Shown here piece after piece: positions 6,883 through 14,524 of a stretch of DNA of 47,895 bases. The position numbers and the translations under genes are program-made. The notes beneath the pieces are model-generated. The model did not search any database. It was given only the letters and a program-made list of their open reading frames with translations, and was not told the origin of the DNA. The DNA comes from an uncultured Bacilli bacterium. GTDB taxonomy: Bacteria > Bacillota_I > Bacilli_A > RF39 > UBA660. Within the stretch, counting starts at the first letter, position 1, and the number at the start of each line of letters is the position of its first letter. The stretch is from contig CALVYB010000004.1 in NCBI GenBank assembly GCA_944371955.1, positions 1 to 47,895 of the forward strand, read 5' to 3'.

Positions 6883-7527
6883 CTATTGCTCTTTTTCTTC
6901 AGAAGTTTGTAATTCCTTGTTTAGATATATCGTTGGATCTACCACTTTCCCATTGATATACAATTCAAAATGCAAGTGATTCCCCATATCTTTATCCAAT
7001 TCGTTAGTTCCGCTTTTTCCTATTACTTGCCCTTGATTTATCACATCACCCTTTTTTACATTTACTTCCGATAGGCTTTGATAAATGCTTACATATCCAT
7101 TGTCATGCTTAATTTCTACTACTTTCCCTAATGTTTCATCTTCTTTTACATCAGTAACACTACCATCTAATACCGCTACAACCTCAAAAGTTTCTTCTCT
7201 TACGAAGTCTGTTCCTGAGTTTTGCATATATGTATTATCATGATATATAATTGACTTTTCTTGTGTGGCTGAGTCGCCTTTGTAATCATAATAATTTTTT
7301 CCTATCTTAATATCTGTGTCTTTATATGGGTTAATCATTATAGTACTTTCTTTTATTACTGGCTCTTCTTCTTCAAGCACTGTATTTGTTACATAGCTCG
7401 TTAATTCGTCAGATGGTTTATTTTTATTTAAGTTAACTCTTAGCATAGCGGTTGCAAACATTACCCCAATAATTCCTACAATCATTAATGTTGGCAAGAC
7501 ATATGGTTTTAATTTTCTTCTTCTCAT
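6883..7527 (-). CDS. spoIIQ: SpoIIQ-like M23-family protein with degenerate zinc site
   Basis: In spore formers SpoIIQ is a forespore membrane protein that docks with SpoIIIAH across the intermembrane space during engulfment. Here residues 10-30 form one membrane segment. YYDYKGD and a TYMQNSGTDF segment match the Bacillus SpoIIQ pattern, and the M23/LytM fold ends with NHLHFELY. The first zinc-binding His of active LytM enzymes is replaced by Asn in QNSGTDF, as I recall for the Bacillus SpoIIQ, so a structural rather than hydrolytic role is likely. The ATG at 7527 is six bases after AGGTGA; a GTG at 7536 falls inside that site. The neighbour mbl supports the name. Whether the organism actually sporulates cannot be told here. 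Confidence 0.82.
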   Translation of the reverse strand: MRRRKLKPYVLPTLMIVGIIGVMFATAMLRVNLNKNKPSDELTSYVTNTVLEEEEPVIKESTIMINPYKDTDIKIGKNYYDYKGDSATQEKSIIYHDNTYMQNSGTDFVREETFEVVAVLDGSVTDVKEDETLGKVVEIKHDNGYVSIYQSLSEVNVKKGDVINQGQVIGKSGTNELDKDMGNHLHFELYINGKVVDPTIYLNKELQTSEEKEQ

Positions 7528-7552
7528 TTTTTTCACCTCATTATAAGTTTTG

Positions 7553-8862: not shown

Positions 8863-10068
8863 TTAAAATTCGATTTCTTGATAATAAATTTTTCCGTCAT
8901 CCATAAGAACATAAATATTATTGTTCAAAGTAGATGCTCCTGCCATATCAACAATCTTCCCAGTATTATTTAATTTAGAAATATCTTCTAGTTTTTTCAT
9001 GGCGTAAGTGTTCCTGCTTTTCGCTTGTATTTCGTCAGTTATATATACATTATTATCAATAACAAAAACTAAATAGTCAGACACTTGAAAAATATCTTTT
9101 ATTTCGCTTGCTTTATGACCATCCGGCAATTGAAAAGATATTTCTAAATCATCGCTTGAATCTAGAATATCGCTTCCCGGCACATAAGAATATAAAACCT
9201 CTTGTTCACCAATTTTACTGTAAATTGGTCTAGATAAATTATTGCCAACATCAGCAGAGGCATAAATCTTATCCACATTAGTTAAATATGGTGTTTTGGA
9301 AGTAGCTCGTAAACCTCCAACTGATGAATATTTTCCAACACTGACATATGCTTCATTTATCCAATAAGCCTCATTATTTTTTGTTATAAAATATACACAA
9401 TACCCATATTTATTACTTATAACAACGTTTAATTTATCACCTATTAATTCGTCTCCATAAGATGTTTGGACTCTATTTAAAACTGATTGACTATGAAATT
9501 CTAATTTATTGGTATCATTATTTATTTCATAATATTTAACAGTATAGTTATTATCATTTTTTCTTACTATATTAAGTGTGCTACCCCAACTTTCTTCTGG
9601 AATGAAATCAGTATCCTTATTAAAATCAATATTTTCAAAAACGACGTTGTCAGTTTTTTTATCCGCTTCATAAAGATTTATTTTATTTTTATTAATATAG
9701 TAAACACTTTCTCCTATTTCTGGACTATCAAAAAATATAATACTGCTAGGTTTATTGGGAAATTTTATTTTTTGGCTATAAATTCCAAAATCTGTGGAAA
9801 AAAATTTATTGTTAGCAACTATCACTGGGGCTGTTCCACCGTTGTCAATATGCGTTATGTGTCCTTGCACTTCATTTAAAAACTCTATGTTTTCTTCCTC
9901 ATCATATAGTTTGTTAAGTAATTTGATACTTTCTGTTTCATACTTCCCAAATGCCATATTATTCTGTGAATTAGCATTTGCATTTTCTTTTTTCCCACAT
10001 CCTGTTATTACTAATAATATAACTAAAATAAAAATAGGCAAAATAGGCAAATTTTTTTTAATGTTCAT
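8863..10068 (-). CDS. Unrecognised lipoprotein, 401 aa
   Basis: A secreted, membrane-anchored protein. Residues 1-24 form a lipoprotein signal with a basic start, a hydrophobic core and the lipobox VITGC, followed by KKEN and an Asn-rich spacer. The rest is rich in short beta-strand-like segments with repeated Tyr-x-Asn/Lys patterns, for example VYYINKNKINLY, CVYFITKNNEAYWI and NNIYVLMDDGKIYY. This could be a beta-propeller but I cannot name a family. The ATG at 10068 is six bases after a perfect AGGAGG; the open frame to 10128 has no such site. It stands alone between rpmE and the SGNH gene, with long spacers on both sides. Function unknown. Confidence 0.8.
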   Translation of the reverse strand: MNIKKNLPILPIFILVILLVITGCGKKENANANSQNNMAFGKYETESIKLLNKLYDEEENIEFLNEVQGHITHIDNGGTAPVIVANNKFFSTDFGIYSQKIKFPNKPSSIIFFDSPEIGESVYYINKNKINLYEADKKTDNVVFENIDFNKDTDFIPEESWGSTLNIVRKNDNNYTVKYYEINNDTNKLEFHSQSVLNRVQTSYGDELIGDKLNVVISNKYGYCVYFITKNNEAYWINEAYVSVGKYSSVGGLRATSKTPYLTNVDKIYASADVGNNLSRPIYSKIGEQEVLYSYVPGSDILDSSDDLEISFQLPDGHKASEIKDIFQVSDYLVFVIDNNVYITDEIQAKSRNTYAMKKLEDISKLNNTGKIVDMAGASTLNNNIYVLMDDGKIYYQEIEF

Positions 10069-10418
10069 ATTATTCCTCCTACTACTAAATTGTCTCTTAT
10101 AATTAAGTTCATATCTAACAAAATTCAACTATAAATATAAGGAAAATTAAAACTATAGACAATTCAATACCACTTTTTTATTATCTCGTAAAATTATTTG
10201 AAATTTACTAATATTACTTTACTGTTCTATTATTCTTACAGCAGCTTATATAACTTATCCAATCTAATTACCTTATTAATTATGTTATACTATATTATCA
10301 TATTTAAATCAATATCATATAAATATTTCAGTGCTATCATAATTAATATGTAATATTATTTTTTAGTAAATAAACATTAAAATTATCATCTATTTATTAC
10401 TATAAGTAACTTTTATTT
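10069..10418. other. 350-base AT-rich spacer, no gene seen
   Basis: Between the lipoprotein gene and the 3' end of the SGNH-like gene. It is rich in A/T runs with no credible open frame or tRNA. The end near 10070-10130 must carry the lipoprotein promoter, but no strong -35/-10 pair stands out. No clear terminator for the SGNH gene was found. Confidence 0.4.
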
Positions 10419-11141
10419 TTAATTTATGTTATTGAACATTATAAGTTTTTTTATTGCTTTTTGTGCTATTTTTTCATATCCTTGTTTTCCTGGATAAATA
10501 CTTTCAGAATATAAAAAATCTTGGTTATTTATTACATCTTCTGTTGAAATGTATGTAATGGTATCAATATTTTTATATATAGTATCTAACATTTTTAAGC
10601 CTTTGTTTATATATTCATTTTCTATTGGTATGGTTGGGTAGCCTATAACGTATATTTCTTTTGGATAATATGTTTTTATTTCTTTTATTAATTTTTCTAT
10701 ATCTTTTTCTATAGATTTCATTATTTTTTGTAGCCTATACTCATTCATATTAGGTGTTATAGCAATATGATAAATAATGTCATTTAACCCAATTGTTAGT
10801 GTGACCAGATCAGACTCTCTTAATGTTTGTTTTATATTTTTTTCTACTTTATTAGTGGTTATTTTTTCATTTGTAACAATTGTTTCATATAGATGATTTA
10901 TGGATTGGTCTTTTACTGCGAAGTCTTTGCTATATAGATTTAATTTTTTTTCCTTTTGCAGCTCATCTCTGATAAAATCACTATAGCCATAATCTTCCTG
11001 TCCATAAGAATTTATACCATATGCATAACCATCCCCTAATGATGTATAATTAAAATAATTATGATGATTGGTCTTGTATATTAAAAAGATAATAAAAATA
11101 ATTAATAAAAATATGATTAACTTATAATGTTTTTTTATCAT
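10419..11141 (-). CDS. SGNH/GDSL-fold protein lacking catalytic Ser and His
   Basis: The fold is that of SGNH hydrolases, secreted or membrane-anchored esterases and acyl hydrolases. Residues 6-22 form a membrane anchor, so the domain faces outside. Block I reads SLGDGYAYG, where the family has GDS with the nucleophile Ser: here it is Gly. Block III is intact as TIGLNDI. Block V reads SIYPGKQGYEKIA, where the family has D-x-x-H-P: Tyr replaces His and the Asp is absent. Each of the Ser and His changes can be one base (GGT for AGT, TAT for CAT). The frame is otherwise clean, with GGAGG before ATG, which suggests a maintained non-enzymatic role or very recent loss. It follows murA after a terminator. 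Confidence 0.78.
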   Translation of the reverse strand: MIKKHYKLIIFLLIIFIIFLIYKTNHHNYFNYTSLGDGYAYGINSYGQEDYGYSDFIRDELQKEKKLNLYSKDFAVKDQSINHLYETIVTNEKITTNKVEKNIKQTLRESDLVTLTIGLNDIIYHIAITPNMNEYRLQKIMKSIEKDIEKLIKEIKTYYPKEIYVIGYPTIPIENEYINKGLKMLDTIYKNIDTITYISTEDVINNQDFLYSESIYPGKQGYEKIAQKAIKKLIMFNNIN

Positions 11142-11149
11142 ATTGCCTC

Positions 11150-11185
11150 CAAAAAAAAGAAATATAACTAATTAATTATATTTCT
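11150..11185 (-). terminator. Terminator of fba-murA
   Basis: AGAAATATAA (11158-11167) pairs with TTATATTTCT (11176-11185), and on the minus strand eight T follow. The stem includes the murA stop codon. It separates murA from the SGNH-like gene 34 bases on. Confidence 0.8.
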
Positions 11186-12429
11186 CTTATTTTAATTTTA
11201 GCACCTACGCTAGTCAGTTTTTCTACTATTTGTTCATATCCCCTCAAGATATGTTCAGCATTTGCTATTGTTGTAGTTCCCTCTGCGAGTAGTCCCGCTG
11301 CTACCATAGCTGCTCCGGCACGTAAATCAGTTGCAACTACTGAGGTCCCTGCCAACTTAGTTGGTCCAATAATTGTTGCGGTTTGATTTTTTACTGTGAC
11401 ATCTGCTCCTAAATCTTTTAAATAGGGAATATGCATAAATCTATTTTCAAATATTGTTTCTGTTACCTTTGATTTTCCATTACATTGAGTTAGTAAAACT
11501 GTAAATGGTTGTTGTAAGTCGGTTGGAAAGCCAGGATATACTAACGTTTTTATTGTAGTTGACTTATAATTATTCGATTTAGAAATCATCACATAGTCTG
11601 TTCCCACTTCTAATTCTGTGCCGATTTCTTCTAATTTTGAAAGCAGTGAGTCTACATGTTCTGGTATTATATTATCTATTTTTAGATTTTTCCCGCATAA
11701 AGCTCCAATAATAATATATGTTCCCGCTTCAATTCTATCCGGTATTACTTCATGAAAACACTTATGTAGTGTTTCTACACCTTCTATTTTAATCGTTGAA
11801 GTTCCGGCACCACTAATACGAGCTCCCATATTATTTAAGAAGGTAGCAACATTTACTATTTCTGGCTCTTTCGCAGCATTATCTATTACTGTAGTACCTT
11901 TTGCTTTCACTGCAGCCAACATTATATTTATTGTTGCGCCGACTGAAGCTATATCCAAATAAATATTAGCTCCGTGAAGTTCTTCTGCTTCAACAATATA
12001 TTTGTTCTTTTCATTTTTTATAGTAGCGCCTAGTGCTTCAAAGCCTTTTAAATGTAAATCAATTGGTCTAGCTCCAATGGAACATCCACCTGGAAAATAC
12101 ATTACTGCTTTTTTATACTTTCCTAATAACGCTCCCATAAAATAGTATGATGCTCGTAATTTTTTAGAAAACTTTTCTTCAATTTCAATATTTATCATGT
12201 TCTTAGGATTAATTATAATGCTCTCGCTTGCTCTTTTCACTTCAACATTTAATTCATTTAATATATCACACAAAGCATCTGTATCTGTTATTTCTGGGAC
12301 ATTACAAATGGTTGCTTCTTCATCTGTCAAAATTGCTGCTGGTATTAATGCTACAGTAGCATTTTTAGCACCACTTATTCGGATTGTTCCGTTTAATTCT
12401 CTGTTGCCTTCTATTTCCATTAATTTCAT
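11176..12429 (-). CDS. murA: UDP-N-acetylglucosamine 1-carboxyvinyltransferase
   Basis: Catalyses the first committed step of peptidoglycan synthesis: transfer of enolpyruvate from PEP to UDP-GlcNAc. Lys22 in ISGAKNA and the reactive Cys116 in PGGCSIGARPIDLH are present, so the fosfomycin-target cysteine is kept. DLRAGAAMVAAGLLAEG near the C terminus is also typical. Length (417 aa) is normal. The start has AGGAGG six bases ahead. It lies 29 bases after fba, the same pairing as murAB (murZ) near fbaA in Bacillus, so by position this may be the MurZ-type paralogue; whether another murA exists outside the window is unknown. Confidence 0.96.
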   Translation of the reverse strand: MKLMEIEGNRELNGTIRISGAKNATVALIPAAILTDEEATICNVPEITDTDALCDILNELNVEVKRASESIIINPKNMINIEIEEKFSKKLRASYYFMGALLGKYKKAVMYFPGGCSIGARPIDLHLKGFEALGATIKNEKNKYIVEAEELHGANIYLDIASVGATINIMLAAVKAKGTTVIDNAAKEPEIVNVATFLNNMGARISGAGTSTIKIEGVETLHKCFHEVIPDRIEAGTYIIIGALCGKNLKIDNIIPEHVDSLLSKLEEIGTELEVGTDYVMISKSNNYKSTTIKTLVYPGFPTDLQQPFTVLLTQCNGKSKVTETIFENRFMHIPYLKDLGADVTVKNQTATIIGPTKLAGTSVVATDLRAGAAMVAAGLLAEGTTTIANAEHILRGYEQIVEKLTSVGAKIKIREI

Positions 12430-14005: not shown

Positions 14006-14524
14006 CTAAAAATACTTATTGATTAATTCTTTTACAAAAGAAGTATATTCTACATTTTCTGGAGCTTCTTCTGTATCTAATAAACATAGTGGCGGAAATA
14101 ATACACACCAGAAATTTTCTCCCAAACCATCACCTAAAGTAATTACTAGTGACTCGTATTCTCCTTCTTCATAAACAATCCCTTTATACTCTTTCTGAGG
14201 GAAATAATTCATTCCATAATCGATTGAAAATGATTCTTCATTTTCTTGTTGTTTTAGTGTTTCTGCAACAACTTTTGAAAAAGATGGAATTTGTTTTTTT
14301 ATATTTTCTCTAGAATTTTGTAAAGAAGTATCTAAAGTTGTTATTTTTTTTATTTCTGTACTTAAATTATTAACTATTTTCTTTTTTATCGCTTGATCTT
14401 CTTTGGTATTACTATTAGCAATCACTCTGAATCTGATTGCTTCTTTAGGAATTATTACTTTTTCTTCTTTATTTATTACTAATATTGTGGTTATGATTGC
14501 TAAAACGATGACTATTTTTTTCAT
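14006..14524 (-). CDS. spoIIR: Stage II sporulation protein R
   Basis: In spore formers this is a secreted signalling protein made in the forespore that triggers SpoIIGA to process pro-sigma-E in the mother cell. Residues 3-18 are a signal or anchor segment. The conserved IRFRVIANSNTKEDQA, the YFPQKEYKG segment, and the C-terminal ENFWCVLFPPLC are diagnostic of SpoIIR. It has GGAAG before the ATG. It follows prmC by 57 bases and precedes mntP, the order found in Bacillus. The protein appears intact, which supports a sporulation programme, or at least a recent one. Confidence 0.95.
   Translation of the reverse strand: MKKIVIVLAIITTILVINKEEKVIIPKEAIRFRVIANSNTKEDQAIKKKIVNNLSTEIKKITTLDTSLQNSRENIKKQIPSFSKVVAETLKQQENEESFSIDYGMNYFPQKEYKGIVYEEGEYESLVITLGDGLGENFWCVLFPPLCLLDTEEAPENVEYTSFVKELINKYF

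Follow-up and report, generated by a model that had tools for sequence, protein, structure and literature searches.

The window analyzed here, a 47,895-nucleotide stretch of DNA from the 1.1-Mb genome of an uncultured Bacilli bacterium, probably of an RF39-like order, carries on its reverse strand an open reading frame (positions 10419 to 11141) for a 240-amino-acid membrane-anchored pseudo-SGNH protein, recognized from the reading frame, a PF00657 match, an AF2 model, and Foldseek. The frame opens with an ATG behind GGAGGC and runs for 240 codons with zero internal stops, in keeping with the clean frame and good ribosome site noted in the original prediction. An N-terminal transmembrane helix is predicted at residues 4 to 25 (11067 to 11132, reverse strand) from the AF2 helix and from conservation. 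Block I reads LGDG, with Gly (GGT) at codon 38 (11028 to 11030, reverse strand) in the place of the catalytic Ser, and block V reads ESIYPG, with Tyr (TAT) at codon 216 (10494 to 10496, reverse strand) in the place of the catalytic His; the loss of both residues, first proposed from the presence of GDG rather than GDS and from the missing His, was thus confirmed. Block III and the rest of the frame had been described as intact. Block III (G118-L-N120-D121; 10779 to 10790, reverse strand) does keep the oxyanion Asn, and block II is degenerate (VKDQSI) at a site that is mostly Gly in intact relatives. Of the residues expected in an SGNH enzyme, the block III Asn120 is therefore present, while the block I Ser, block II Gly, and block V His are absent.

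The Pfam family PF00657 (Lipase_GDSL) matched the protein with 29.1 bits (E value of 1.4e-6), above the cut-off of 23.6, which takes its SGNH assignment beyond chance. PF13472 scored 28.0 bits, under its cut-off of 32.9, and no NCBIfam family was matched. The AF2 model, made with an alignment of 83 orthologues, has a pLDDT of 93.9 and a pTM of 0.87, and shows one transmembrane helix followed by a complete SGNH domain with a three-layer fold; the confidence for this dead protein equals that for an intact orthologue. The top Foldseek matches were 7e16 (E value of 1.3e-11) and 8ik1 (E value of 2.4e-10), with TM-scores on the target of 0.76 and 0.75, respectively, and many SGNH hydrolases were also matched. 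By structure prediction, the SGNH fold is present behind a single membrane anchor, as had been proposed, and the nearest solved structure is a Geobacillus GDSL esterase.

Immediately upstream (34 bp) lies murA (11176 to 12429), a neighbor conserved family-wide, and the gene that usually follows downstream in relatives is rpmE, encoding ribosomal protein L31 (8408 to 8647), both on the reverse strand. In the window genome a gene for a 421-amino-acid protein (8863 to 10128, reverse strand) is found between the SGNH gene and rpmE; its product matched no Pfam or NCBIfam family and is a probable lipoprotein (TGCGKK), and several other members of the genus have rpmE straight after the SGNH gene. The position directly after murA, part of the original prediction, extends well beyond this genome, as the order murA-SGNH-L31 is conserved across the family. 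MurA was present in 86 of the 89 loci read with flanks, the other three having contig ends beside the gene, and among the loci listed no more than some 65 bp separate the end of murA from the SGNH frame. This conserved position identifies the SGNH genes as positional orthologues rather than scattered paralogues. What it documents is co-location, not wall function, and it gives a weak hint of the wall link that had been suggested. The window also encodes SpoIIQ and SpoIIR (6883 to 7536 and 14006 to 14524), and Spo0A is encoded elsewhere (L206) in the same 1.1-Mb genome, suggesting that the sporulation program is retained in a reduced genome. Three further loci of this genome (L030, L031, and L033) encode two SGNH proteins in which the GDS and His motifs are intact and a third that is SGNH-like; one of the three adjoins an AT3 acyltransferase and an LtaS-like sulfatase.

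Within the genus of the window, 13 orthologues sharing 47 to 92% identity were compared. Nucleophile and base are replaced in every member read: position 38 is Gly in 13 of 13, and position 216 is Tyr in 10 and Phe in 3, so close orthologues keep neither GDS nor the His. Gly38 is one of 57 invariant sites among 230, although its codon varies (GGT, GGC, and GGA), indicating that the Gly persists despite changes in the DNA. The only Ser and His residues invariant in the genus are S45, in a loop, and H26, in the linker beside the transmembrane helix; by alignment, no other Ser/His pair is conserved at the catalytic positions. No frame breaks were identified among the 13 orthologues.

The whole protein is under purifying selection. 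Omega for the genus was estimated at 0.069 (lnL of -5509, against -6012 with omega fixed at 1, a difference of 503), an approximate value as dS is near saturation in most comparisons. Two less saturated pairs gave similar ratios, at 0.031/0.39 for L006 and L009 (dN/dS of ~0.08) and 0.026/0.59 for L078 and L188 from another dead genus (dN/dS of ~0.04). Elsewhere in the family, omega was 0.045 to 0.128 in genera that have lost both residues and 0.026 to 0.053 in intact genera, subject to the same approximation; genus g66, in which the Ser is kept and position 216 is Phe, gave 1.000, probably because the estimate did not converge, and was left out. The low omega and the 13 concordant members indicate that the protein is functional and that the loss is old. 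Of the two explanations first offered, a kept binding or structural role is therefore supported, and a very recent loss is excluded. A sequencing artifact, also considered, was ruled out by the same concordance and by dN/dS. With the catalytic residues of the homologous active family missing and the gene retained by selection, the protein has two hallmarks of a pseudoenzyme.

Codon usage and near relatives give some indication of the route taken. The proposed one-base step from Ser (AGY) to Gly (GGY) is plausible because Ser is encoded by AGC or AGT in most Ser-keeping near relatives of the genus, although by TCN in most of the family. Three of these near relatives (L042, L043, and L071) keep the Ser and already have Tyr at the His position, which suggests that the His was lost before the Ser in the lineage of the window.

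To place these losses in the family, a profile search was made of 386 sampled family genomes, with a match found in 278, a few weak matches among these probably being other SGNH proteins. From about 70 genera, 161 orthologues were read; 62 have both Ser and His, and 99 have lost one or both. The pairs at positions 38 and 216 included Gly/Tyr (n = 25), Ser/Tyr (n = 14), Ser/Phe (n = 8), and Gly/Phe (n = 8), with many other pairs in the remaining orthologues and Glu, Asp, Ala, Tyr, Phe, Asn, Gln, His, or Met at position 38. Of about 90 cases of His loss, 77 have Tyr or Phe as the replacement. Tyr is one transition away from CAT, but a change of His to Phe takes more than one step, so position 216 may favor an aromatic residue. 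The catalytic state is uniform in most genera and mixed in a few (g76, g5, g52, and g152). In g76, two members (L036 and L135) are Ser/His and a third (L136) is Ser/Phe, a recent His loss that could serve as a natural comparison set. In several family genomes the interval is empty, with no gene between murA and L31 (for example, L114, L115, L119, and L127), and in L116, L120, L126, and L131 a shortened or highly diverged transmembrane protein occupies the SGNH position after murA, some of these being weakly matched by the family profile.

The intact orthologues also bear on the motif used for block V. D-x-x-H, taken at first as the block V pattern, is not a rule of this family; most intact orthologues are without Asp at the usual place three residues before the His (H-3), and the Asp is mostly at H-2 instead. 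A review (PMC9487903) notes that some bacterial proteins have Ser-His dyads and lack the block V Asp, and the usual absence of the H-3 Asp in the intact orthologues fits such dyads.

To count the changes of state, a gene tree was built without the two catalytic columns. On this tree the intact or dead label changes 13 times, with at least 6 changes forced by supported branches, and on an independent MurA plus FbaA tree it changes 14 times, with at least 5 forced; the exact number is uncertain, given the modest support for inner branches and the length of some branches. The Ser/His state has thus changed several separate times in the family. A single origin of the dead state was rejected, since placing all dead rows in one clade on the MurA plus FbaA tree gave a p-AU of 3e-77, with the dead set defined by residues and not by the tree. 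The trees do not orient the changes, which we read as losses because Ser and His are present in a class-level relative (L207) and in solved enzymes, and because repeated regain of both residues is implausible. From these sequences we infer that catalysis was ancestral and later became dispensable.

A comparison of conservation between 62 intact and 64 both-lost sequences identified the sites that the dead members have released. Conservation collapses in the dead members at positions 38, 75, 170, 171, 204, 210, 215, and 216, which lie mostly in catalytic blocks or adjoining stretches. Sites still conserved in the dead members (I21, Y22, D37, G42, Y53, I88, N91, G118, N120, D121, Y222, and I225) correspond to the end of the membrane segment, the core, and the oxyanion block III; I21 and Y22, at the end of the transmembrane helix, are conserved in intact and dead members alike. 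Asp37 is probably structural, as it is invariant in intact members as well. Statements made here about the pocket rest on the alignment and the known SGNH topology.

Taken together, these observations make it likely that the product is a conserved pseudo-hydrolase, which crosses the membrane once and carries an SGNH domain that is intact in fold but catalytically dead, and that selection maintains it for a non-catalytic role. The opposing view, that catalysis was lost under relaxed selection and that the gene, now without function, is on its way out, could draw on the small genomes, on the mixed state of g76 (two species with Ser and His, one with Phe at 216), and on the series across the family from intact through dead and shortened to absent copies. 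Such decay is very unlikely in the face of the omega of 0.069 in a dead genus (omega of 1 rejected by 503 lnL units), 13 unbroken frames, a Gly38 held through synonymous changes, and changes that fall on pocket residues while core and membrane residues stay. Marginally less probable still is an enzyme working by another route, with a different nucleophile or base moved into the pocket. Asp37, Asn120, and Asp121 are indeed kept in the dead members, but Asp37 is equally invariant in intact ones, the genus-invariant S45 and H26 are off the catalytic positions in the alignment, and no common new chemistry emerges when position 38 is Gly, Ala, Glu, Asp, Tyr, Phe, Asn, or Gln depending on lineage and position 216 is mostly Tyr or Phe.

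Two further explanations, each improbable though less so than decay, are compatible with a kept non-catalytic role. The protein could have been a sporulation- or acylation-linked enzyme that lost catalysis along with its substrate pathway, in line with spoIIR and spoIIQ nearby in the window and with the partial loss of sporulation in RF39 and related orders (PMC10868615). However, Spo0A is encoded in the window genome and, among those sampled, in 37 of 41 with a dead copy and 29 of 32 with an intact one, and the dead state showed no association with loss of Spo0A, MBOAT (P = 0.64), or AT3 acyltransferase (P = 0.11) genes in a test that ignores phylogeny. Alternatively, as a special case of the pseudo-hydrolase, the dead protein could tune or localize an active SGNH enzyme in the same cell, for which the two intact SGNH proteins and the SGNH-like third of this genome would be candidates; these are encoded elsewhere in the genome, and the repeated loss has no known link to them.

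For the favored pseudo-hydrolase, the N-terminal helix would tether the SGNH domain and the conserved membrane segment would position it. The single helix is preceded by lysines, a topology that would place the domain on the outer face of the membrane. Once catalysis had become dispensable, the former pocket and surface could bind a putative envelope ligand or protein partner at the membrane surface, in a binding or scaffolding role. The ancestral substrate might have been a glycerolipid, a weak hint given by the PlsC-type fusion in the nearest class-level relative. A tentative extension, to which we give slightly less than an even chance, is that the main function of the murA-linked protein never needed catalysis, the protein being a membrane-tethered scaffold or sensor with hydrolysis as an optional layer dropped many times. 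The absence or shortening of the gene in some genomes indicates that some lineages can do without even the non-catalytic role.

Pseudoenzymes are usually viewed as paralogues freed by duplication. Repeated catalytic loss in a positionally conserved gene under selection implies instead a second, non-catalytic function common to enzyme and pseudoenzyme, and a comparison of sister species makes this shared function testable. If the main function never needed catalysis, intact and dead sister species would be natural replicates of the conversion of an enzyme into a pseudoenzyme. For roughly half of the family proteins, an automatic "GDSL lipase/esterase" label would be incorrect.

Among known proteins, the Geobacillus GDSL esterase EstL5 (7e16 and 8ik1), which may be YpmR-like, is the top Foldseek match of the window protein and also of an intact orthologue, and its entries were the only PDB relatives found by sequence that carry the GDSL name. 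EstL5, whose structure contains bound PMSF, is a Ser/His enzyme, whereas the window protein has neither residue. The identity of EstL5 is 17 to 18% to the window protein and 26% to the intact orthologue. The murA-linked orthologues with Ser and His (for example, L103 and L034) have the same place after murA, a similar length, and the same transmembrane helix and fold, but unlike the window protein they keep GDS and HP and are putative enzymes. An order-wide search returned only members of the same family, and a search of 23 genomes from other families of the class yielded one full relative and one fragment. The full relative (L207, 589 to 1998), the nearest found at class level, has a PlsC-type acyltransferase (PF01553) fused ahead of the SGNH domain and keeps Ser and His (GDSIT and NFHLS); it differs from the window protein in this fusion, in having no such transmembrane anchor, and in that murA is not adjacent in the stretch read. 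A passage of the review PMC9487903 cites a carbohydrate esterase active site with divergent catalytic and non-catalytic binding functions. The Arabidopsis GDSL pseudoenzyme At1g54030 has the same block I change of Ser to Gly and is reported to have no lipase activity and a new cellular role (PMC4757993), but it is a single eukaryotic case, unlike the recurrent loss among orthologues described here. In the literature searched, which was not complete, no bacterial SGNH orthologue was found described as having lost its catalytic residues repeatedly. Single dead GDSL proteins are known; the novelty here lies in a bacterial gene of conserved position that has lost catalysis repeatedly while under strong purifying selection.
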